Below are positions 19,410 through 31,390 of a DNA stretch of 64,000 nt, piece by piece. How positions within the stretch are numbered: the stretch's first letter is position 1; each line of letters begins with the position of its first letter. The stretch spans positions 248,001-312,000 of the forward strand of contig NZ_CP107811.1 of the NCBI RefSeq assembly GCF_036346105.1, in the 5' to 3' direction. The position numbers were made by a program, and so were the translations under genes. The notes under the pieces were generated by a model. It had not been told where the DNA came from, ran no database searches, and saw only the letters and a program-made list of their open reading frames with translations. This DNA is from Streptomyces sp. NBC_00539. GTDB lineage: Bacteria; Actinomycetota; Actinomycetes; Streptomycetales; Streptomycetaceae.

Positions 19410-20039
19410 GTGGGTCGTAAACAGGTCTGGGACCAGGAAGAGGTACTGGCCTCCGCCATGGGGCTGTTCCGTCGTCGCGGATACCTCGGCGCATCGCTGC
19501 GCGACCTCGAGGAAGCAACCGGAATGCACCCGGGCAGCCTGTACCGGGCGTACCACAGCAAGGAGCGCCTGTTCAGCGCGGCACTGGACGCCTATAACGA
19601 GCTGGTGGTCGACAGCAGGGTCCGCGTCCACCTACGCGAGACGCAGGACCCGGTGGCCGGCATCCGTGCGTTCTTCACCTCGGCGTTCGACGCGAACCCC
19701 GGCCCGGAACCCGATCCCGGGTGCCTGCTCACCAACACCGCGGTGGAGTCGTTCACCGTTCCGCAGGCCACAGCCGGCGTTCGCCGGGGGCTGGAGATGA
19801 TCGAGTCGGGCTTCGCCGACGCACTGACACGCGCCCGCGCCCAGCAGCTGTTGCCCTCGGACATCGACGTCGAGATGTCGGCCACACAGCTCCTGACCCT
19901 CTACCAAGGCCTCCTGGTCCTCGTCCGATCCGGTACGGCCGCCGCCAAACTGCACGCCATCACCGACGGAGCCCTGGCCTCGATCGGGGCCAGGCAAGCC
20001 AAAACCTCCAAGCAAGCCAAGAATGAGGAACAGCGATGA
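19410..20039 (+). CDS. TetR/AcrR-family transcriptional regulator
   Basis: 209 residues. An N-terminal helix-turn-helix (about 12-58) has LFRRRGYLGASLRDLEEATG and HPGSLYRAYHSKERLF, and a ligand/dimer domain follows. The C-terminus resembles the TetR_C subgroup with PGCLLTNTAVE that often controls electrophile or quinone-stress genes. The basic tail ends KTSKQAKNEEQR. GTG at 19410 follows GAGGAG by five bases. It overlaps the following SnoaL-like gene by four bases (ATGA), so it probably represses its own operon through the palindrome at 19380. Confidence 0.9.
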   Translation: MGRKQVWDQEEVLASAMGLFRRRGYLGASLRDLEEATGMHPGSLYRAYHSKERLFSAALDAYNELVVDSRVRVHLRETQDPVAGIRAFFTSAFDANPGPEPDPGCLLTNTAVESFTVPQATAGVRRGLEMIESGFADALTRARAQQLLPSDIDVEMSATQLLTLYQGLLVLVRSGTAAAKLHAITDGALASIGARQAKTSKQAKNEEQR

Positions 20040-20383
20040 GTGACCAACAGCAGCTCTGGAACGACTATGCCGCGTGCTGGTCGGCCGACCCCGCCATACG
20101 ACTCGCCGCACTCGGCTCGGTCGCGGTGGACGACGTTTCCTACCGGGACCCGGGAACCGAGGTGGCCGGTCTGGCCGCACTGGACGCATACATGGACGGG
20201 TTCGCCGGAGCGTTCCCCGGGCACCGCTTCCGTATCGAGGAGGTCTACGACCACCACGGCCGGTCGCTGGCCCGATGGACCCAGGTCGGCCCGGACGGCA
20301 AGGCCTTCATGACGGGTGTGAGCAGCGCGGTGCACCGCGACGGCCTCCTCGCCGACGTGACCGGCTTCTTCCTCACCGCCTGA
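20036..20383 (+). CDS. SnoaL-like / NTF2-fold protein
   Basis: 115 residues forming a single NTF2-like fold. Recognisable parts are WNDYAACWSADPAIRLAAL, the loop YRDPGTEVAGLAALDAYMDGF and the strand pair RIEEVYDHHGRSLARWTQVGPDG. SnoaL-like proteins act as polyketide cyclases, isomerases, hydrolases or small-ligand binders. The catalytic residues cannot be fixed from sequence alone. It is translationally coupled to the TetR-type regulator, suggesting that both deal with the same small molecule. Confidence 0.8.
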   Translation: MSDQQQLWNDYAACWSADPAIRLAALGSVAVDDVSYRDPGTEVAGLAALDAYMDGFAGAFPGHRFRIEEVYDHHGRSLARWTQVGPDGKAFMTGVSSAVHRDGLLADVTGFFLTA

Positions 20384-20403
20384 GCGCTTCAGACGGCCTA
20401 GCC

Positions 20404-20444
20404 GAGCACGCCCGTCAGGTCACGCAGGCCAGACGGGCGTGCTC
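20404..20444 (+). terminator. Hairpin after TetR/SnoaL operon
   Basis: Perfect 13-base arms (GAGCACGCCCGTC at 20404-20416 and its complement at 20432-20444) enclose a 15-base loop, beginning 21 bases after the SnoaL stop. There is no T tract, as is common for actinobacterial terminators. Confidence 0.65.
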
Positions 20445-20745
20445 CTCGCCCCGACGTGGCCGGCGCGCAACTCTCGTTCGCTGCCGCGTGTCGTGGCCGC
20501 CCTCGTCTCGTCGCCGCTCATGAGCATCGGCAAGAACGTCGCCGTGGTCCTTAGGACAACAGTTCTGGCCGCCACTGGCGTTGTCAGCTTCCGCGGCAAT
20601 CGCCGCAGCAAGCAGCAATGGTACGGTCCCACCGGCCAGACGCTCACGGAGCGCCGGGGCGAACGGCTGCCGCAGCGGCTCCGCAAGCGCGTCCTGCACT
20701 ACTCATAGGGCATTGCCTTCCGAGCACACCGGGGGCGGACCGGAC
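20445..20745. other. Intergenic stretch without supported gene
   Basis: 301 bases between the SnoaL operon terminator and the convergent DUF6086-like gene. A 62-codon plus-strand frame starting at 20521 has no ribosome site or recognisable similarity, and I do not support it. Confidence 0.5.
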
Positions 20746-21174
20746 TCACGCCGTCATGAAGCGGCCCAATTCGCGCGACTTGTCCTGGAGGGCGGTTGTC
20801 CACGCCTTCTCAGCGGCAATCGGGGCCGTCGGCACCTGAACATCCTTGTGGCCGCCGCCCTCGCCGGAACCCGTCGGCAGCCAGTTCACCTCGACGCCTG
20901 CCCTCTCCGCCAAGACCAACACCGTGGCGACGAAGCCCTCGGACAGGGCAGTCATGACTGCGTGACTCGTTCGCCGGGGCCACGCGATCAGGGCATCGAC
21001 GAACGTCTTGAACACGAAGGGGTCGATCTGACACTCGTCAGCCTGCATGGGACCGATGCCGGACGGCAGACCCAGCTCGGCTTGGTAGACACTCACCTGG
21101 CTCATGAACAGCCGCGAGGCGCCGGTGGACGGGTTCCACAGGGTCTGGTCGCCCATGTCGTAGTACTGGCTCAA
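20746..21174 (-). CDS. DUF6086-like protein
   Basis: 142 residues starting at TTG 21174, preceded by GGAAGGGG at about six bases. The body (SQYYDMGDQTLWNPSTGASR, then QADECQIDPFVFKTFVDALI and HAVMTALSEGFVATVLVLAERAG) matches what I recall of the Streptomyces DUF6086 family. That family has unknown function and often occurs near secretion- or immunity-like genes. The open frame continues upstream to an ATG at 21459, four bases after the preceding gene, but that extra 95-residue part has low-complexity character and is not needed by the family. If the long start is real the protein has 237 residues. Confidence 0.6.
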   Translation of the reverse strand: MSQYYDMGDQTLWNPSTGASRLFMSQVSVYQAELGLPSGIGPMQADECQIDPFVFKTFVDALIAWPRRTSHAVMTALSEGFVATVLVLAERAGVEVNWLPTGSGEGGGHKDVQVPTAPIAAEKAWTTALQDKSRELGRFMTA

Positions 21175-21462
21175 CGCAGCCCCTTCCTGCTGGCCGTACC
21201 AGCCAGCGTCGCAAGCACATGACATCACAGCCAGTGCGCCCTCCACGGAATGTGAGCCAGAGCTAATAGAGCAGGCCCTCACGGGCGTCACGCCCCTTGC
21301 CTGCGAAACGACGTGCTCCTGCACCATACGGACGACACGTCCTCCCCTGTCAGGGTCGGCTCGGCTCCCCGCAACTCGGTGCACACCGTTGTCGTGGGCC
21401 CCGTCTGAAAGGCGTGGGGCGATCTGCGCCCACCCCGGGATCGCGGGGACTCCAGCCATGGC

Positions 21463-22338
21463 CTATTGGATCAGGTCGGTATGCGTGTAGCACGTCAGGC
21501 AGACGTAGAGCTGCAGATGATTCGCGTCGGAGACTTGGAGACCGGGCGGGTTCGACACGTTGTCGTTGTCGAGCACGGCGATGGCTTGGTCCTCGTACGG
21601 GACCCAACCCCTTCTGTAGTCGCGGCATTCTTCCGAGGCTATGGTCAGCAACGGATGCATCCCGACGCCACAGTTGATGCAGAATCGGGCGATGGGATCG
21701 GTGAGTCCCCACGGCGGCCAGCCACCGACCTTCCATCCGGGGGCGACGGACAGCTCGTCGGAATAGAACTCCTCCGGAGCCGCCTCATAGGAATCATCCA
21801 TCGCGACGCCGGCCGCCTGCCACGCGCTCCGGTCTCTCAGCTGCTGCTGCAACTCCTCGTCCAGCTCCAAGAAGTCGGGGTACTCGGTGACTTGCTCCGG
21901 TGCGAGCACGCACGGCTCCGGCGTGTAGCCGTACTGCGCCTCGGTCGGTTCGGGCGGCGAGTCGAGGACGTGGGTGACGTCGGCGGCGGTTCGCCAGAAC
22001 AGCTCGGTCGTCGGCTTGTGCTCCGGTGGGTGCTCCGAGGGACACCACAGCACCTGGAGCAGATCAGTCCGTCCGGGTGTCCGCAGCAGGGGCACGTCGC
22101 GCGCGTACAGCTGGGCCACTGGCAGAAGGGGGGAGACCGGACCCTCGTGCCACTTGTCGCAGTACAGCCATGGCTGGCCGGCGGGCCACAGCAGCGGCCC
22201 GCCGATCGAGCTGTCGTACGGCGACGGGGAACCGGGCCGGGGATGCAGCCGGGTTGTCGTGCGTGCCAGCGGGGCCAGTTGTGGGAAGACCGCCGCCACG
22301 TCGAGGGGCCGTGGTGGAGTGGTACGGATGACGTTCAC
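21463..22338 (-). CDS. DUF1963/YwqG-like protein
   Basis: 291 residues from GTG 22338. Features typical of YwqG-like proteins are SIGGPLLWPAGQPW, LLQVLWCPSEH, and the late KVGGWPPWGLTDP, followed by two zinc-knuckle-like cysteine sets (FCINCGVG and YVCLTCYTH). These proteins are of unknown function and are often encoded beside polymorphic toxin or DUF6086-type genes. The open frame extends 47 codons further upstream (to 22479), but that part lacks similarity and no clear ribosome site distinguishes the starts. Confidence 0.65.
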   Translation of the reverse strand: MNVIRTTPPRPLDVAAVFPQLAPLARTTTRLHPRPGSPSPYDSSIGGPLLWPAGQPWLYCDKWHEGPVSPLLPVAQLYARDVPLLRTPGRTDLLQVLWCPSEHPPEHKPTTELFWRTAADVTHVLDSPPEPTEAQYGYTPEPCVLAPEQVTEYPDFLELDEELQQQLRDRSAWQAAGVAMDDSYEAAPEEFYSDELSVAPGWKVGGWPPWGLTDPIARFCINCGVGMHPLLTIASEECRDYRRGWVPYEDQAIAVLDNDNVSNPPGLQVSDANHLQLYVCLTCYTHTDLIQ

Positions 22339-23148
22339 GACGGCGATACTGCCAGCAGCCTCTGACAAGCTGCATACGGCGAGATCGGTTACGGCCCCGC
22401 CCTCCCCCGCGAAGACTACCGCCGCGTCAGCATCGGAACACCGCAGCCGGCCCCCGGGCACTACCAACGCATGCTCCACACCTGGTCCACGCGCTATTCC
22501 CCGTGCAGCCTTGATGGCGATCGCCGGCGCCGCGGGTCAGGGCTTGATCCGGAAGAGACGGCCTATGGCCGCAGCCGCCGTGCTCGGGCTTCTCGCTGAG
22601 TCCAGCACCTCTCCGTTCTCCCCGCCGGCCGCGGCGCCACCAGATGCCGAACCGCAGGACGTAGGGCTGGCCCGTGCTGCTGGCACGCGTCACTCGGCGC
22701 TCGTGGACGAGGCGCTGCAGAACCTGCACGGCACCACGCGCTCAACCCTCACCGCCGCCTGGCGAGGCGGAACAACGCCACGGCACCGCTGTGCAGTTGG
22801 CCTAGCTGGTCCCCGCCTACCCCCCGGAGCACGGCGGAGTGCGCAGGGTCCGTGAAGCGGTGGCCGCGCAGCTCGACGCGTTCACCGAACAAGTGGCCTC
22901 ACGTCTCGGGCCGGGCCGACGCGCTGGGTGAGGGCTGGGGTCGGGAGGACCTGCTGATGCCGGCCCAGCTGTACGCCGACCGGACGGTGATGGCGGCGTC
23001 CGGCGAACTTTTTTCGTGTTCCTGTCACATCTTTGGGACCACACGCGTCAATGCGATGACGGCAGTTGCCGTCGACGAACCGTGACGCGACGGCAGAAAC
23101 CCAGGGCACTCAGGTGCGCCGAAGGCTGCCCGAAAACAGAGAGCCGAC
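22339..23148. other. Low-information region with gene debris and downstream promoter
   Basis: 810 bases without an intact supported gene. It contains the frameshifted remnant at 22839-23008 and, from about 23009 to 23148, AT-richer sequence that must hold the promoter of the NlpC/P60-like gene. I looked there for a c-di-AMP riboswitch, which controls many Streptomyces rpf genes, and did not recognise one. Confidence 0.5.
22839..23008 (+). pseudogene. Frameshifted remnant of a small conserved Streptomyces gene
   Basis: A frame starting GTG 22839 reads REAVAAQLDAFTEQVASRLGPG and stops at 22929. The adjacent frame immediately continues with GWGREDLLMPAQLYADRTVM and AASGELF. Together they look like one protein split by a frameshift near 22915, truncated after about 55 residues. 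The parent family is not named here because I cannot identify it securely. Confidence 0.35.
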
Positions 23149-24972
23149 ATGAAGACGTCTGGAATTTCACGTACGACGAACACCGCCGCGGTGCTGACCA
23201 CCGCATTGGCCTTGGGACTGGTCGGCCTGACGGCCCCCCTCGCGAACGCCGACTCCCCCTCCCCCGGCGCGGCCGGCGCCGCTTCGGCCGCGGACGACTA
23301 CCCCAGTCCGGGTCAGGGCCCCACCACTTCCGGGTCCGGAGACGGGAGCCTGGCGGCGTCCATCGCCGCAGCTCAGCCCATCACCCGCAGCGAGGTCCTC
23401 AAGCGGGCCGCCACCTGGGTCGGCCTGGGTCTGCCGTACAACATGGGGGGCTCCTACCAAGGATGGCGCACCGACTGCTCCGGCTACGTCTCGATGGCCT
23501 GGGGGCTGCCCGGCCCCGGGAGAGCCACCCCCGAATTCCTCCCGTCCGGCGTCGCCCACGCGATCACCAAGGACGAATTGAAGCCGGGCGACGCGCTCAA
23601 CAACGACCATCCCGATAAGTACGGCCACATCGTGCTCTTCGAGAAGTGGACCGACGCCTCCAAGTCCGCTTACTGGGGATATGAATTCAGCGGGACCGGT
23701 GTCCACCATCGCGTGATCCCCTACGCCTACTTCTCCCGCTCCTCGGAGTACCAGCCGATCCGGCTCGACAACATCGTGGACGACGAACAGACCCCGGCGG
23801 CCGAGGACGGTTCCAGGGTGAAGGGCGATTTCGACGGTGACGGCCGCGATGACGTCGCGGTGCTCTACGACTACGGCCGCGAGGGCGGGCGGAGCCACTC
23901 CGGACTGTGGACGTTCAGCAGCAACGGCAGCGGCTTCAACAGCCCGAAGAAGGTCTGGGACAGCGGCTCCGACAGCTGGAACTGGGCGTCGAGCAAGCTG
24001 ACCGTCGGCGACTTCAACGGCGATGGCAGGGCGGACATCGCCGCCCTGTACGACATGGGCCGCTCCGAGGACGGCCGCAACCGCACCAAGCTCTTCACCT
24101 TCGCCAACAACGGCAACGGGTTCAGCGCCCCCGAGAAGGTGTGGGACAGCCAGGAGGACGCAGCGGTCAAGAGCTGGAACTGGTCGGCCAGCAAGCTCGG
24201 CGTGGGCGACTTCAACGGTGACGGCAAGGCCGACGTAGGCGTCCTCTACGACTACGGCTCCACCGAAGGCGGCAACCGCACCGGGCTGTGGACGTTCACG
24301 AGCACCGGCAGCGGCTTCGTCGGCCCCAAGAAGCTGTGGGACAGCAACGACGACCTGGTCAGGAGCTGGAACTGGTCGGCCAGCAAGCTCAGCGTGGGCG
24401 ACTTCAACGGTGACGGCAAGGCCGACGTCGGCGTCCTCTACGACTACGACCAGACCGACAGGGGGAACCGCACGGGGCTGTGGACGTTCACCAGCACGGG
24501 CGTCGGCTTCAACAGCCCCAAGAAGGTGTGGGACAGCGAGGGTGACCCGGTCAAGAGCTGGAACTGGGACGTGAGCAAGCCGGTCACCGGCGACTTCAAT
24601 CACGACGGCAAGGCCGACATCGGCGTCCTCTACGACTACGGACCCGCCGAAACCGGCAACCACACCGGGCTGTGGACGTTCACCAGCACCGGCAGCGGCT
24701 TCAACAGCCCCAAGAAGCTGTGGGACAGCAACGACGACCCGGTCAAGAGCTGGAACTGGGACGCGAGCAAGCCGGTCACCGGCGACTTCAACGGCGACGG
24801 CAAGGCCGACATCGGCGTCCTCTACGAGTACGGCAGGACGCACGACGTCAACCGCAGCGGGCTGTGGACGTTCACCAGCACCGGCAGCGGGTTCAGCAGC
24901 CCCCGCCTCGGCTGGGACAGCCAGTCGGACGCCGTGAAGAGCTGGAGCTGGGCCGCCAGCAAGACCGCCTGA
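23149..24972 (+). CDS. Secreted NlpC/P60-like hydrolase with six FG-GAP/VCBS repeats
   Basis: 607 residues. A signal peptide (1-34, cleavage after LANA) precedes a low-complexity linker, then a catalytic domain (about 75-215) with NlpC/P60 features: nucleophile Cys110 in TDCSGYVSMAW, LKPGDALNN, and His160 in YGHIVLFEKW. It would cut peptide bonds in peptidoglycan or act as an amidase outside the cell. Residues 223-607 are six repeats of ~61 residues with Ca-binding DFNGDGKAD loops and a SWNW element, expected to fold as a beta-propeller. It is the first of three tandem genes with the same tail; 34 bases separate it from the next. AGAG is the only ribosome-site-like sequence upstream. Confidence 0.85.
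   Translation: MKTSGISRTTNTAAVLTTALALGLVGLTAPLANADSPSPGAAGAASAADDYPSPGQGPTTSGSGDGSLAASIAAAQPITRSEVLKRAATWVGLGLPYNMGGSYQGWRTDCSGYVSMAWGLPGPGRATPEFLPSGVAHAITKDELKPGDALNNDHPDKYGHIVLFEKWTDASKSAYWGYEFSGTGVHHRVIPYAYFSRSSEYQPIRLDNIVDDEQTPAAEDGSRVKGDFDGDGRDDVAVLYDYGREGGRSHSGLWTFSSNGSGFNSPKKVWDSGSDSWNWASSKLTVGDFNGDGRADIAALYDMGRSEDGRNRTKLFTFANNGNGFSAPEKVWDSQEDAAVKSWNWSASKLGVGDFNGDGKADVGVLYDYGSTEGGNRTGLWTFTSTGSGFVGPKKLWDSNDDLVRSWNWSASKLSVGDFNGDGKADVGVLYDYDQTDRGNRTGLWTFTSTGVGFNSPKKVWDSEGDPVKSWNWDVSKPVTGDFNHDGKADIGVLYDYGPAETGNHTGLWTFTSTGSGFNSPKKLWDSNDDPVKSWNWDASKPVTGDFNGDGKADIGVLYEYGRTHDVNRSGLWTFTSTGSGFSSPRLGWDSQSDAVKSWSWAASKTA
23815..24969 (+). repeat. Six FG-GAP/VCBS coding repeats, array 1
   Basis: Six units of about 183-195 bases encode the pattern GDFNGDGKADxGVLYDYG...NRTGLWTF...GFxSPKKxWDS...SWNWxASK. 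DNA identity between units is high, with recurring blocks such as GGCGACTTCAACGG. Confidence 0.85.
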
Positions 24973-25006
24973 CCCACCCCATCCGACCACCCGAGAGAGG
25001 CAGAAC

Positions 25007-26557
25007 GTGAGGTTTTCCCCGAGCAGGAACAGAAGGCACGCCGGCGCCGTGGCCGCGGCCGTGTCAGGGCTGGCCCTGGCCCTCGTCTCCCCCACCCAGG
25101 CGCATGCAGCCTCCGTGACCACCTGGGAGAAGCTGGCCCAGTGCGAGAGCAGCGGGAACTGGGCGTACCAGGGCCGCTACCACGGCGGTCTGCAGTTCGA
25201 TCCGAACACCTGGGTGGAGTACGGGGGTACCGAGTACGCGCCGTACGCGTACCAGGCCACCAAGGAACAGCAGATCAGGATCGGCGAGAAGGTGCTGGCC
25301 GGCCAGGGCCTGAACGCCTGGCCGAACTGCTGGTGGAAGGCGGGCCTGGCCGACGACCACCAGCCGCCCTTCCCCGACGTCTCCGCGGGCCAGGAGGATT
25401 CCGCCGACCGGACCGAGGGGGACTTCGACGGCGACGGCCGGGACGATGTCGCGGTCCTGTACGACTACGGCCGCGAGGGGGGTGTGAGCCGCACCGGGCT
25501 TTGGATCTTCAGCGGTTCCCGCACGGGCCTGACCAGCCCCAAGAAGGTCTGGGACAGCGGCTCCGACAGCTGGAACTGGGCGTCCAGCAAGCTGACCGTC
25601 GGTGACTTCAACGGCGACGGCAAGGCCGACATCGGCGTGCTCTACGACATGGGCACCGCCGAGGGAGGCCGCAACCGCACCAAGCTCTTCACCTTCACGA
25701 GCAACGGCCACGGCTTCAACGCCCCCGTCAAGGTGTGGGACAGCCAGGACGACCCCGTCCGGAGCTGGAACTGGTCCGCGAGCAAGCCGGTCACCGGCGA
25801 CTTCAATCACGACGGCAAGGCCGACCTCGCGGTCCTCTACGACTACGGCCGGACCGGCGAGGTGAACCGGACCGGGCTGTGGACCTTCAGCAGCAACGGC
25901 AGCGGCTTCAACAGCCCCCGCCTCGTGTGGGACAGCTCGACGGACGCCGTGAAGAGCTGGTCCTGGACCGGCAGCAAGCTGACGGTCGGGGACTTCAACC
26001 TCGACGCACAGCCCGACATCGGCGTCCTGTACGACAACGGCAGGACCGACGGCGTGAGCCACACGGCGCTGTGGGCCTTCACCGGCAACGGCAGCGGCTT
26101 CGACAGCCCGAAGCAGCTCTGGACGAGCGGTCGTGAGAGCTGGAGCTGGAGTGCGAGCAAGCCCGTCTCCGACGACTTCGACAACGACGGCACGACCGAC
26201 ATCGCCGTGATGTACGACATGGGCCGCACCGAGGACGGCCGCAACCGCACCAAGCTGTTCCTCTTCCTGGGCAACGGCCGTGGCTACGAAGCCCCGTTCA
26301 AGGCCTGGGACAGCCAGGACGATCCCCTCCGCAGCTGGAACTGGTCCGCGAGCAAGCCGGTGGTCGGGGACTTCACCGGCATCGGACTGCCCGAGGTGGG
26401 CGTGCTGTACGACTACGGCGTCACCGACGGCGCCAACCGTACGGGGCTGTGGACGTTCCCCAGCGCAGGACGCGGTCTGGCGGGCCCGAAGCAGCTCTGG
26501 GACAGCAAGGACGACGCCGTCAAGAGCTGGCGGTGGGGCGCGTCCAAGGCCGGCTGA
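25007..26557 (+). CDS. Secreted resuscitation-promoting-factor-like protein with six FG-GAP/VCBS repeats
   Basis: 516 residues. A basic signal peptide (1-34, cleavage near AHA-AS) is followed by an Rpf/transglycosylase-like domain (about 36-120) with catalytic Glu47 in AQCESSGNWAYQG, the GGLQFDPNTW block, and YAPYAYQATKEQQIRIGEKVL. These lysozyme-like enzymes cleave the glycan strands of peptidoglycan and promote germination or regrowth. Residues ~135-516 are six VCBS repeats closely related to those of the neighbours; units 4 and 6 have degenerate calcium loops (DFNLDAQPD, DFTGIGLPE). The GTG start follows GAGAGAGG by a few bases. It is probably cotranscribed with the flanking genes. Confidence 0.88.
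   Translation: MRFSPSRNRRHAGAVAAAVSGLALALVSPTQAHAASVTTWEKLAQCESSGNWAYQGRYHGGLQFDPNTWVEYGGTEYAPYAYQATKEQQIRIGEKVLAGQGLNAWPNCWWKAGLADDHQPPFPDVSAGQEDSADRTEGDFDGDGRDDVAVLYDYGREGGVSRTGLWIFSGSRTGLTSPKKVWDSGSDSWNWASSKLTVGDFNGDGKADIGVLYDMGTAEGGRNRTKLFTFTSNGHGFNAPVKVWDSQDDPVRSWNWSASKPVTGDFNHDGKADLAVLYDYGRTGEVNRTGLWTFSSNGSGFNSPRLVWDSSTDAVKSWSWTGSKLTVGDFNLDAQPDIGVLYDNGRTDGVSHTALWAFTGNGSGFDSPKQLWTSGRESWSWSASKPVSDDFDNDGTTDIAVMYDMGRTEDGRNRTKLFLFLGNGRGYEAPFKAWDSQDDPLRSWNWSASKPVVGDFTGIGLPEVGVLYDYGVTDGANRTGLWTFPSAGRGLAGPKQLWDSKDDAVKSWRWGASKAG
25408..26554 (+). repeat. Six FG-GAP/VCBS coding repeats, array 2
   Basis: Six units homologous to array 1. The first two are the most similar to units 1 and 2 of array 1 (identical KKVWDSGSDSWNWASSK segment), which suggests duplication or gene conversion between the two genes. 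Confidence 0.85.
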
Positions 26558-26603
26558 GCCGGCCCTGGCTCACGGCGATCGTGAACCCTCACGGAAGGAG
26601 ACC

Positions 26604-28793
26604 GTGGTTACCGTGAAAACGAAAGAAAGCGGACGAGGAAGAGGAACGCAAAAGGGTCGGGGGGCGGCCCTGGCCGCCTCGGCTCTGTGCGCCCTGTACG
26701 CCGGAACGCTCACCACTGCGACGCCCGCGACGGCGACGCTGACGGCGGCCGTCCCGCAGGACGCGCAGTCCGCCCGGTCACCACAGGCACCGGCCCCCGG
26801 CACGGCCGCGGCCGCGCCGGCACTGCTGGCCGAGCCGGCACTGCGCGTGGTGTCCTGGAACATCTGCGGTGAGGCCGGCGGCGTCCGCGGCGAGGACGGG
26901 TTCTGCGCCTACCGCAACGAACCGCAGCAGAAAGTCGACCAGATCGCCCGGGTCGCAGCGGAACACGACGCCAACGTGATCATGCTCCAGGAGGTCTGCG
27001 GCGAAGCACCCGGCAGCCACATGGAGCGGCTGCGCGCGGCCCTGGGCACCGGATGGTCCATCGAGCACGCGAAAGGAGCCCGGCCGGACGGGACGACGTA
27101 CTGCCGGGGCGGGCTCGGCGGAGAGCTGGGCGTGGGCATCGCGGTGAAGGGGCGGGTGAGCGAGGTCACCGCGGTCAACACCGTGCCCTCGGGCGGAGAC
27201 CTGCAGACGCTGCCGATCCTGTGCGTACGCGTCGAAGGGTGGTCGCCCCGTGCCTGCACGACCCACATCCTCGCCGATGGTGCCGACCCGCGCCGGTCGG
27301 GACAGATCCAGAACGTGAAGAGCGCGATCTGGCCGGACCGCAACCAGATCGTCCTCGGTGGCGACTTCAACATGTTCCCCGGCAGCCCCGACCTCCAGCC
27401 GATCTCCGAGGCCTTCGACGAGTGCGACCGCAGGGCCTACGGCGACGGGGACGAGGTGAACGAGGTGACCCACCACTCCTGGAGCGCGCAGGGCGGCCAC
27501 CAACTGCGCAAGCGCGACCACATCTTCGCCTCCCGGAGCGAGTCGGGCAGCCCCTTCACGGCCTGCGACGTCGACCGCTCCCTGATGGACACCACCGAGA
27601 ACCGGAGCAACAGCGGTCCTCCCAACGGCTATTCCGACCACGCCCCGGTCATCGGCCACCTCCGGCCCGTGAAGCACACCGAAGTCGCCGGCGACTTCAA
27701 CGGCGACGGGCGGGCCGACCTCGCCGTGCTGAGCGGCCAGGGCAAGTCGGCGGACGGGCGCAACCAGACGAGTCTGTGGATGTTCTCCGGAACCGCCACG
27801 GGGTTCGCAGCGCCGCGCCGGGTCTGGGACAGCGGTACCGACAGCTGGAACTGGGCGGCCAGCACCCTGACCGCCGGCGACTTCGACGGCGACGGCAAGG
27901 CCGACCTCGGCGTCCTCTACGACTACGGCCGGAGCGGCGACCGCAACCGCACCGGACTGTGGACGTTCAAGGGCACGGCACAGGGGGTGGAGGCCCCGCG
28001 CAAGGCCTGGGACAGCCAGGACGACCCCGCGAACCCCGACTGGAACTGGAACGCCTCCAAGCCGGTGGCCGCGGACTTCGACGGCGACGGCAAGGCCGAC
28101 GTAGGCGTCCTGTACGACTACGGCTCCTCCGGCGGCAGCAACCGTACGGGGCTGCGGGTCTTCACCGGCACCGGCACCGGGTTCAAGAACCCGCGGCAGC
28201 TCTGGGACAGCCGGACCGATCCCGTCAAGAGCTGGAACTGGGCGGCGAGCAAGCCGGTCGCCGGGGACTTCGACGGCGACGGCAGAGCCGACCTCGGCGT
28301 CCTCTACGACTACGGCCGGACCGGCGACCGCAACCGCACCGGACTGTGGACGTTCACCGCCACCGGGAACGGCTTCGCCGGTCCCCGGCAGGTCTGGGAC
28401 AGCAGCACGGACAGTTGGAACTGGGCGGCGAGCAAGCCGGTCGCCGGGGACTTCGACGGCGACGGCAGGGCCGACCTCGGCGTCCTCTACGACTACGGCC
28501 GGACCGGCGACCGCAACCGCACCGGACTGTGGACCTTCTCCGCCACGGGGAACGGCTTCGGAGGTCCGCGCAAGGTGTGGGACAGCGCCGACGGCGGTGA
28601 CAGCTGGAGTTGGGCGGCGAGCAGCCCGGCGGCCGGCGACTTCAACGGCGACGGCCGGGTCGACCTCGGTGTCCTGTACGACAGCGGCAACGCGTCCAAC
28701 GGCCGGAACCAGACGCGCCTGTGGGCGTTCACCAGCCGGGGTGCGGAGTTCGGCGCACCCCGGCGGTACTGGGACAGCAGCCTGAACGGCTGA
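26604..28793 (+). CDS. Secreted endonuclease/exonuclease/phosphatase-family protein with six FG-GAP/VCBS repeats
   Basis: 729 residues. A signal peptide (about 1-50, with a basic region and hydrophobic AALAASALCALYAG) precedes an EEP (DNase I/sphingomyelinase-like) domain at about 80-355. Metal and catalytic residues are visible in SWNICGE, VIMLQEVCGE (Glu), GGDFNMFPGS (Asp/Asn) and GYSDHAPVIGH (Asp-His). It would hydrolyse phosphodiesters, such as extracellular DNA or phospholipid head groups, outside the cell. Residues ~359-729 form six VCBS repeats as in the two upstream proteins; units 4 and 5 are nearly identical. GTG at 26604 follows AAGGAG by three bases; GTG 26613 is an alternative with a 12-base gap. 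It is the last gene of the three-gene unit. Confidence 0.86.
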   Translation: MVTVKTKESGRGRGTQKGRGAALAASALCALYAGTLTTATPATATLTAAVPQDAQSARSPQAPAPGTAAAAPALLAEPALRVVSWNICGEAGGVRGEDGFCAYRNEPQQKVDQIARVAAEHDANVIMLQEVCGEAPGSHMERLRAALGTGWSIEHAKGARPDGTTYCRGGLGGELGVGIAVKGRVSEVTAVNTVPSGGDLQTLPILCVRVEGWSPRACTTHILADGADPRRSGQIQNVKSAIWPDRNQIVLGGDFNMFPGSPDLQPISEAFDECDRRAYGDGDEVNEVTHHSWSAQGGHQLRKRDHIFASRSESGSPFTACDVDRSLMDTTENRSNSGPPNGYSDHAPVIGHLRPVKHTEVAGDFNGDGRADLAVLSGQGKSADGRNQTSLWMFSGTATGFAAPRRVWDSGTDSWNWAASTLTAGDFDGDGKADLGVLYDYGRSGDRNRTGLWTFKGTAQGVEAPRKAWDSQDDPANPDWNWNASKPVAADFDGDGKADVGVLYDYGSSGGSNRTGLRVFTGTGTGFKNPRQLWDSRTDPVKSWNWAASKPVAGDFDGDGRADLGVLYDYGRTGDRNRTGLWTFTATGNGFAGPRQVWDSSTDSWNWAASKPVAGDFDGDGRADLGVLYDYGRTGDRNRTGLWTFSATGNGFGGPRKVWDSADGGDSWSWAASSPAAGDFNGDGRVDLGVLYDSGNASNGRNQTRLWAFTSRGAEFGAPRRYWDSSLNG
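27678..28790 (+). repeat. Six FG-GAP/VCBS coding repeats, array 3
   Basis: Six units. The blocks beginning at 28241 and 28424 are almost identical over more than 110 bases, offset by exactly 183 bases (61 codons), indicating a recent unit duplication. Calcium loops read DFDGDGRAD or DFDGDGKAD in most units. Confidence 0.85.
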
Positions 28794-28803
28794 CCTGCCC
28801 GCG

Positions 28804-28845
28804 GCGGGGGCCGGCGTATCCCTCGGGGGAGACGCCGGCCCCCGC
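28804..28845 (+). terminator. Terminator after the three-gene secreted-protein unit
   Basis: Perfect 14-base arms (GCGGGGGCCGGCGT at 28804-28817 and its complement at 28832-28845) around a 14-base loop, starting 11 bases after the last stop. It is GC-rich without a T tract. Confidence 0.8.
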
Positions 28846-28938
28846 AGACGTTCAGCCCGTTCCGACAGCGTCGTACGGGCCCGCTCCAAACTGGCATGTG
28901 CAAGGCAAGGCGAAGACGGGGTGGGCTGCTGTGCGTGG

Positions 28939-29514
28939 TCAGCGCATGCTGACGGTGATCTCGGGGAGCGGTATGTCGGACAGGTTGAGCTGGAGCCCGG
29001 TCATGGTCAGGTAGGTCTGGGAGTCACTGAGGGTGTTGGACGGTGCCTGGGTCTTCCCGCGGGTGCTCACCAGTAGGTGCCAGCCCCCGCGCTTGTAGCT
29101 GCGTGAGGCGTCGGCGCTGTCGCCGTTCGGGTTCAGCACCCAGCCCTGGCGCTCCAGGTCGGCGCAGATCGCGTGCATCTCCGACTTTGCGGCGGTCTTC
29201 TCGCGGACGGCCATCCAGCCCGTCCTGTTCGAGTCGGCGCCGGCCGGGACGGTCGGACGGCCCTGCGCCGGGTCGAGGCCCGCCGCGCTGACCGCGGTCC
29301 GGATCACCTCGTCCACGGCCTCCCGTGTGAGGGGCGGTGACGTGGACTCCGGTGTGGGCGGCGCCGTGTACGGGGACGGCGTGGACGCGGGCGCGCCCAG
29401 GTGAATGCGCCCGTCGTCGTTTATCTGGATGTGGTCCGGCAGGGCCACGGCGGCCAGGCTCACGATCAAGGTCGCGGCCAGCCCGATCCACACCCTCTTC
29501 AACAGCGCGTTCAA
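28939..29514 (-). CDS. Membrane-anchored hypothetical protein
   Basis: 191 residues starting at TTG 29514, preceded by GGGGGGAG at the right distance. An N-terminal hydrophobic segment (about 8-26, VWIGLAATLIVSLAAVALP) acts as a signal anchor. A Pro/Thr/Ser-rich linker follows, then a small extracytoplasmic alpha/beta domain with two cysteine-free halves apart from one ICADLE cysteine. No family recognised. It converges on the secreted hydrolase unit and is transcribed away from rox. Confidence 0.6.
   Translation of the reverse strand: MNALLKRVWIGLAATLIVSLAAVALPDHIQINDDGRIHLGAPASTPSPYTAPPTPESTSPPLTREAVDEVIRTAVSAAGLDPAQGRPTVPAGADSNRTGWMAVREKTAAKSEMHAICADLERQGWVLNPNGDSADASRSYKRGGWHLLVSTRGKTQAPSNTLSDSQTYLTMTGLQLNLSDIPLPEITVSMR

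Positions 29515-31390
<1,876 letters not shown>

Follow-up and report, generated by a model that had tools for sequence, protein, structure and literature searches.

A tandem trio of putative secreted cell-wall enzymes with matching propeller-type tails in Streptomyces sp. NBC_00539 and its kinship to umbrella-toxin lectins

Results

Gene layout and flanking elements

The 7.5 Mb genome of Streptomyces sp. NBC_00539 is present on two contigs, C1 (7.07 Mb) and C2 (437 kb). The analysed stretch of 64,000 nucleotides, referred to as the window, corresponds to C1:248001-312000, and coordinates without a prefix refer to it. Three consecutive genes were located on its + strand. Gene 1 (23149..24972) encodes 607 aa with an NlpC/P60-like head, gene 2 (25007..26557) encodes 516 aa with an Rpf-type transglycosylase-like head, and gene 3 (26604..28793, GTG start) encodes 729 aa with a head of the EEP superfamily. 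A signal peptide was recognized by eye in each product, and all three end with a six-repeat tail. The coordinates, the gene order and the intergenic gaps of 34 and 46 nt, proposed earlier in an interpretation of the letters alone (hereafter the sequence-only reading), were confirmed by the open reading frames.

The leader 5' of gene 1 (22998..23148, + strand) is conserved with S. cirratus (locus L087; blastn) and resulted in no Rfam match. A riboswitch preceding the trio, for c-di-AMP or another ligand, was considered and rejected, as there was no Rfam match up to E 1 between positions 20000-30000 of the window. In eight related loci, the sole matches at the gathering thresholds were RNase P (L049) and two glycine aptamers (L047). 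A G+C-rich hairpin lies 3' of gene 3 (28804..28845, + strand). The single terminator of the sequence-only reading was retained in part: the hairpin at the end of the trio is strong (-47.5 kcal/mol over an 80-nt stretch, z -3.2), but it has no T run and is thus not a classical terminator, and neither a promoter nor a terminator was found on the trio strand by consensus scan. The block 22998-28843, which runs from 151 bp before the ATG of gene 1 to the hairpin, is collinear with S. cirratus L087 with a DNA identity of 83.9% (blastn). This collinearity supports the trio as one unit, and the three genes are probably expressed as one transcript.

Enzyme heads

The Rpf head (25097..25351, + strand) matched the Pfam family Transglycosylas/Rpf (PF06737) with the E value of 7.1e-25 and contains the motif CESSGNW, the Glu of which we take to be catalytic. 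The score of the gene 2 product with PF06737 was 87.9 bits against a cut-off of 27, while the head was under the NCBIfam equivalog cut-offs for named Rpfs. The NlpC/P60-like head (23371..23814, + strand) was assigned by alignment, its Pfam match (E 0.026) being below the cut-off. The gene 1 product reached 15.0 bits with NLPC_P60 against a cut-off of 23, and the corresponding scores in the relatives L047 and L048 were 21.4 and 19.1 bits. C36 of the DCSG motif and H86 are invariant in 14 of 14 aligned NlpC heads.

The EEP head (26838..27668, + strand), also assigned by alignment, matched PF03372 (Exo_endo_phos) only when it was scanned alone (E 1.1e-14; 55.2 bits against a cut-off of 24.5), whereas no EEP family was matched by the whole gene 3 product. 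Exo_endo_phos was matched by all 11 aligned EEP heads including the trio's own, and N8, E52, H143, D176, N178, D227, D267, H268 and eight Cys residues are invariant in the same 11 heads. The three heads are therefore of the kinds named in the sequence-only reading, the NlpC assignment resting on the Cys/His motifs with Pfam below the cut-off. The conserved motif residues of all three heads are presumably catalytic, as is known from their families; judged by sequence, they are intact and none of the catalytic domains appears inactive.

The profile of the EEP heads matched several kinds of PDB entries, including an unnamed EEP protein, sphingomyelinases, TDP2, nocturnin and others. These matches are weak (best E 1.7e-5) and do not decide the substrate. 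The EEP head is rare in the genus, being present in 9 of 296 genomes at E 1e-20, the host genome included, and the NlpC head is common (251 of 296). EEP heads were observed also in L079, L080, L083 and L084 with other FG-GAP-like tails and no same-tail ORF in the locus stretch, and in L085 with a different C-terminal region.

Repeats of the tails and their kinship to UmbA lectins

The tails of genes 1, 2 and 3 are located at 23824..24969, 25418..26554 and 27690..28790, respectively (+ strand). Tail 2 is 64% identical to tail 1, and tail 3 is 60% and 55% identical to the other two. Six FG-GAP repeats were found in each of them with a repeat profile built from these tails. The six repeats of the sequence-only reading were thus verified, whereas its repeat length of ~61 residues and its uniform SWNW element had to be corrected: the period is 61-66 residues, and the element occurs as SWNW, SWSW, SWRW and DWNW. 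The last repeat of the gene 3 product stops before the element, leaving 17 elements in 18 repeats. With Pfam at E values up to 0.1, the trio tails matched FG-GAP families and no choline-binding family.

The sole PDB sequence matched by tail 1 up to E 0.1 was 9oee_A (E 6.3e-30), an entry with the name 'Secreted esterase', to the propeller of which the tail is homologous. A profile of 27 tails matched 9oee_A at 1.4e-65, far ahead of 8w20_C (3.5e-9), a fungal propeller lectin and integrins. The entry 8w20 represents the Umb1 particle (PMC11062931). 9oee_A is evidently UmbA4 of S. coelicolor, because it shares the entry name with 8w20_C and because the known sugar contacts of UmbA4, Y551, N633 and W668 (PMC13274773), fit its sequence after an index shift. 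When index shifts between -60 and 59 were tried, Y, N and W fell on the contact positions only at -31, which corresponds in length to a signal peptide; the check covers residues 403-667 of 9oee_A, and at +15 two residues agree while the third lies outside that part. The PDB code itself does not appear in the text of PMC13274773. Based on the six repeats and this homology, the trio tail is expected to fold as a six-bladed beta-propeller.

At the shift of -31, the counterpart of both Y551 and W668 is the x of xLWTF, directly preceding its L. Over the trio's 18 repeats, this position is occupied by Gly in 12 cases, Lys in three, and Ala, Ser and Arg in one each, without any aromatic residue. The alignment to the 27-tail profile instead assigns Y551 to the W of LWTF, two residues further on. 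N633 corresponds to the S with which the SWNW element begins. In UmbA4, the contact positions are described to diverge between the blades (PMC13274773). By alignment, the sugar-contact site of UmbA4 is not kept in the trio tails, and their ligand may consequently differ, or may not be a teichuronic acid at all. The trio tail is akin in its sequence to the UmbA propeller lectins, from which the same ligand does not follow.

Occurrence of the tail family

The search with tail 1 matched 27 of 296 genus genomes at E 1e-30. The heads were classed in the stretches from the 26 other tail genomes, with a second match in G249 left out. The close tail was found on UmbA-like trypsin heads in 15 of the 27 genomes, where some ORFs are partial; trypsin was matched with Pfam in both heads tested (L068 and L076) and the others were classed by similarity to L068/L071. 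On wall-enzyme heads, it was found in five genomes including the host: CHAP and Rpf in G078, CHAP+Rpf and NlpC+Rpf in G060, Rpf+NlpC in G258, and Rpf alone in G051. The tail was joined to a subtilase in G024 and to proteins of ~1500-1670 aa in G015, G042, G243 and G249, and the genomes G227 and G075 were left outside the head classes. In the tail tree, the tails of UmbA-like proteins, subtilase and wall enzymes were intermixed, and the subtilase tail of L069 paired with that of the UmbA-like L077 with a support of 1.0. The subtilase (Peptidase_S8) in question is encoded at L069:4504-7143 as a fusion to the same six-repeat tail family. Proteins of ~1500-1670 aa in L204, L205, L215 and L216 contain six more distant repeats of the tail family.

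An umb locus was identified at L086:5549-11991, in which the UmbA-like protein has the tail family of the trio and its UmbC-like neighbour contains eight ALF repeats and Ntox17, as in UmbC proteins. UmbB-like genes with the AVED motif were found in L076 and L086; the AVED screen flagged also three unrelated ORFs (L043, L093, L142). In both L076 and L078, a gene resembling hexapeptide acetyltransferases (below curated cut-offs) is found in the vicinity of the UmbA-like genes, joined in L078 by a GalE-type epimerase gene (over the cut-off). These two neighbourhoods recall the utr cluster of S. griseus, where umbA adjoins utrJ (PMC13274773). A glycosyltransferase-like gene (below cut-offs) is situated near the UmbA-like gene of L076.

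Recurrence of the trio and of same-tail sets

The conservation of the trio in relatives, on which the sequence-only reading depended, was observed: the same three genes in the same order are present in S. cirratus (L087), and four same-tail genes in S. olivoreticuli (L088), where a GH25-like gene (Rv2525c-type, by eye) is added between the NlpC and Rpf genes and EEP is the last. The recurrence in these two named species, together with the intact motifs, is consistent with a coordinated secreted set guided by one targeting propeller, as that reading proposed. A sister trio with NlpC-like, Rpf and SASA-esterase heads was found on C2 of the host at ~79.8-85.2 kb (L009:7833-13178). Its tail differs from that of the trio, with 8w20_C as the sole PDB match (E 2.3e-25). 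The C2-type tail was detected in 5 of 150 genomes at E 1e-30, among them G036 and G048 with UmbA-like trypsin heads.

To find further sets, the tail of each NlpC-head ORF was compared with the other ORFs of its locus at E 1e-6. The sample of NlpC ORFs is non-random: selection was based on resemblance to the NlpC head, to the tail or to the EEP head, and the contig scan contributed the best 80 of 585 relatives. Before filtering, 33 of 106 NlpC ORFs in this sample had a same-tail match in the locus. The removal of duplicates (L089=L041, L093=L043, L094=L045, L102=L048, L118=L052) left 101 distinct ORFs. Loci L120, L145 and L147 (short or distant matches), L107 (masked bases) and L114 (a 56-residue match, possibly a broken partner) were left out of the sets. 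Same-tail sets were counted for 24 of the 101 distinct NlpC ORFs, a number which includes some near-duplicates and the weak L090 (42%, with an unassigned partner head) and refers to the sample with the best 80 of 585 relatives. In each set, the NlpC-head gene is near one to three same-tail genes. The tails of the other NlpC ORFs had a PG_binding-like motif by pattern (49 of 101), were shorter than 60 residues (15) or of another kind (13). Ten of the last 13 are propeller-like by eye with no counted partner, two being at the locus end or cut by it.

The 35 partner heads, many of them labelled by eye and the masked locus L107 included, were 13 Rpf, 6 lysozyme-like, 5 GH25-like, 4 M23, 3 EEP, 1 SASA and 3 unassigned. 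The lysozyme-like heads were recognized by eye from a GLFQQR-type motif, with no Pfam lysozyme family in the three scanned; GH25-like heads matched PF08924 in both cases tested and were assigned by eye in the rest, and M23 was matched with Pfam in the one tested. The co-occurrence search suggested by the sequence-only reading thus returned sets of shared tails, in which the partners are mostly Rpf and other peptidoglycan-cutting heads and EEP is only an occasional one. Same-tail sets were found also in Kitasatospora, Actinosynnema and Lentzea. Three further sets (L195, L196, L197) were detected by tail search alone and were included in the comparison of tails below; the L195 set extends over 10 kb, with genes on either strand. 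The fourth gene of the Kitasatospora set (L096:12153-15149) encodes 998 aa with no Pfam family and a tail 53-56% like the others.

Matching of tails within sets

In 16 loci with both NlpC and Rpf, the best Rpf tail for 14 of the NlpC tails was that of the own locus. The two exceptions were the NlpC tails of the window and S. cirratus, with the best Rpf tail in L088. The distances between NlpC tails correlated with those between Rpf tails in the Mantel analysis of 13 loci (r=0.95, p=0.0002), for which L042, L074 and L087 were dropped as near-identical. The corresponding head-head correlation was r=0.13 (p=0.14), and the head-tail r values ranged from -0.19 to 0.20 with NlpC head-tail p values of 0.058 and 0.072, which are close to significance. 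With all 16 loci, r values of 0.40 (p 0.0015) for head-head and 0.54-0.56 for NlpC head-tail distances were determined; the 13-locus run is reported since these are inflated by near-identical pairs. The tail-tail r was at least 0.95 in both runs. At 35% identity, the tails of the 13 loci form five groups, and because the distances of unrelated tails are saturated, r reflects group matching, not clock-like co-evolution. As compared by identity, the tails vary between the loci and match within a locus.

The orthologous NlpC tail of S. cirratus is 86% like that of the window, whereas the trio's own tails are only 55-64% identical. The matching is therefore old in the trio, and concerted evolution within it was ruled out on the same grounds. 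In the locus pairs L041/L042, L045/L049 and L043/L044, the within-locus tails are closer than the between-locus ones.

Discussion

The results are best explained by lectin-guided wall-lysing sets which would draw on a lectin repertoire shared with the umbrella toxins and might be aimed at other actinomycetes. We assign a probability of roughly 0.57 to this interpretation. All three enzymes of the trio would be secreted and steered by one lectin-like tail, which would bind a repeating wall glycopolymer, perhaps of teichuronic or teichoic acid type. Stem peptides would be cut by NlpC and the glycan by Rpf in one place, and the EEP enzyme would be a phosphodiesterase with the wall polymer, not DNA, as its substrate. 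Most probably, the sets would lyse or weaken the walls of other actinomycetes bearing the matching polymer. The rarity of the EEP head, the two different tails in one genome and the kin of the tails in weapons make us lean to the walls of rivals as the target. Several observations count against this interpretation. By alignment, the trio tails keep none of the aromatics Y551 and W668 of UmbA4; the matching in the trio is old, and the NlpC tails of the window and S. cirratus have a closer Rpf tail in another locus; no partner was counted for ten NlpC ORFs with propeller-like tails; the host genome showed no UmbA-like head in a search run without a positive control and only two ALF repeats; and the NlpC head-tail correlation approaches significance.

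A glycan chain whose backbone is polyol phosphate and whose end sugar is O-acetylated is described in PMC13274773. It offers a phosphodiester and an ester as possible substrates of EEP and SASA, respectively, and the third heads of the two host sets may use such bonds; the SASA-type esterase of the C2 set could remove O-acetyl groups. The breakdown of nucleic acids, which the sequence-only reading had included among the possible functions, was not supported, as nothing found points to DNA, the partner heads are mostly peptidoglycan-cutting and the tail is homologous to a wall-glycopolymer lectin.

The main alternative, which we regard as rather unlikely, is the remodelling of the producer's own wall, where the tails would anchor hydrolases of germination or hyphal growth to the producer's polymer. 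The domains Rpf and NlpC are known above all from enzymes that act on the wall of their producer. The trio is kept with the same tail in S. cirratus, the synergy of an NlpC/P60 enzyme with Rpf is described in mycobacterial division (PMC2262848), and choline-binding proteins are described to attach to cell-wall teichoic acids (PMC5137146), all of which would fit an own-wall function. Unfavourable to it are the two sets with different tails in one genome, the rarity of the EEP head (9 of 296 genomes) and the close tail (27 of 296), the sharing of the tails with UmbA-like proteins and the lack of a significant correlation between head and tail distances.

Tandem duplication with subsequent replacement of the heads, without any functional need for tail matching, is improbable as the whole explanation. 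It agrees with the mostly tandem layout and with the 89-99% identity of the within-locus tails in L041, L042, L043, L044, L045, L049 and part of L096. Nevertheless, the head types return in combination with different tails. The 13 loci comprise five tail groups, three of which (L045/L049, L088, L096) show the gene order NlpC, GH25-like, Rpf; repeated independent rebuilding of such head sets by chance is unlikely. Scavenging in soil, in which the set would digest dead walls, nucleic acid and phosphate sources and the propeller would bind polysaccharides in general, would suit the nucleases and phosphatases among EEP enzymes, several kinds of which were matched at weak E values, and the subtilase with this tail family in L069, but it is the least probable reading, since the partner heads elsewhere are mostly of peptidoglycan-cutting kinds and a general module would not require tails that are matched set-wise and otherwise variable.

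If the preferred interpretation of lectin-guided wall lysis is correct, the lectin repertoire of umbrella toxins also serves ordinary secreted hydrolases. The sets would then be lysins of natural origin that target actinomycetes by species, would offer a natural experiment in the re-aiming of enzyme sets, and would allow lectins to be linked by sequence to the wall glycopolymers that they recognize. The question of self or rival becomes testable with laboratory Streptomyces with or without a given polymer. A more speculative extension, which we propose tentatively and at less than even odds, is that the sets form a second, particle-free weapon of actinomycetes based on the lectin repertoire of the umbrella toxins: lysin sets, every member of which bears one common lectin, would be re-aimed by a joint exchange of all tails as the polymers of rivals change, and EEP or SASA would trim the receptor polymer and thereby give the peptidoglycan-cutting enzymes access to the wall.

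Comparison with known systems

No description of same-tail wall-enzyme sets was found in open-licence papers, and NlpC is not mentioned in the available text of the umbrella-toxin papers PMC13274773 and PMC11062931. The claim of the sequence-only reading that no such system has been described agrees with this search outcome for the sets themselves and requires qualification, as the tail is kin to UmbA and the pneumococcal choline-binding proteins are a precedent for the architecture. The common NlpC/P60 proteins of Streptomyces share the head family of the trio, but they have PG_binding-like tails and no counted same-tail neighbour. Mycobacterial RipA (NlpC/P60) and RpfB combine the pair of activities that would be expected of the NlpC-like and Rpf heads of the trio, acting synergistically and on the own wall in cell division. 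To our knowledge, RipA and RpfB have no shared lectin tail.

In pneumococcus, the wall hydrolases LytA, LytB and LytC and the phosphodiesterase Pce have one shared repeat tail which binds wall teichoic acid. The genes of the choline-binding proteins are scattered, the tail is of one kind and the target is the own wall. Both these proteins and the trio comprise several known or putative wall enzymes with one tail, while the trio repeats are of propeller type.

In umbrella toxins, the lectin tail of UmbA decides the target, and the UmbA heads are trypsin-like, those of S. coelicolor having no complete catalytic triad, and bind UmbB and thereby UmbC, as described in PMC11062931 and PMC13274773. 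The trio differs in that its heads are NlpC-like, Rpf and EEP with intact motifs and in that the aromatic contacts of UmbA4 are not kept. No UmbA-like head was found in the host genome by a search run without a positive control, and its ALF content was two repeats in one 446-aa ORF (C1:6530573-6530977, L201), which is far short of the eight repeats in the UmbC-like protein of L086. Like UmbA, the trio proteins are predicted to be secreted, judging by their signal peptides recognized by eye, and have C-terminal tails homologous to propeller lectins. The UmbA proteins and the wall-enzyme sets are also alike in having many variable tail families.
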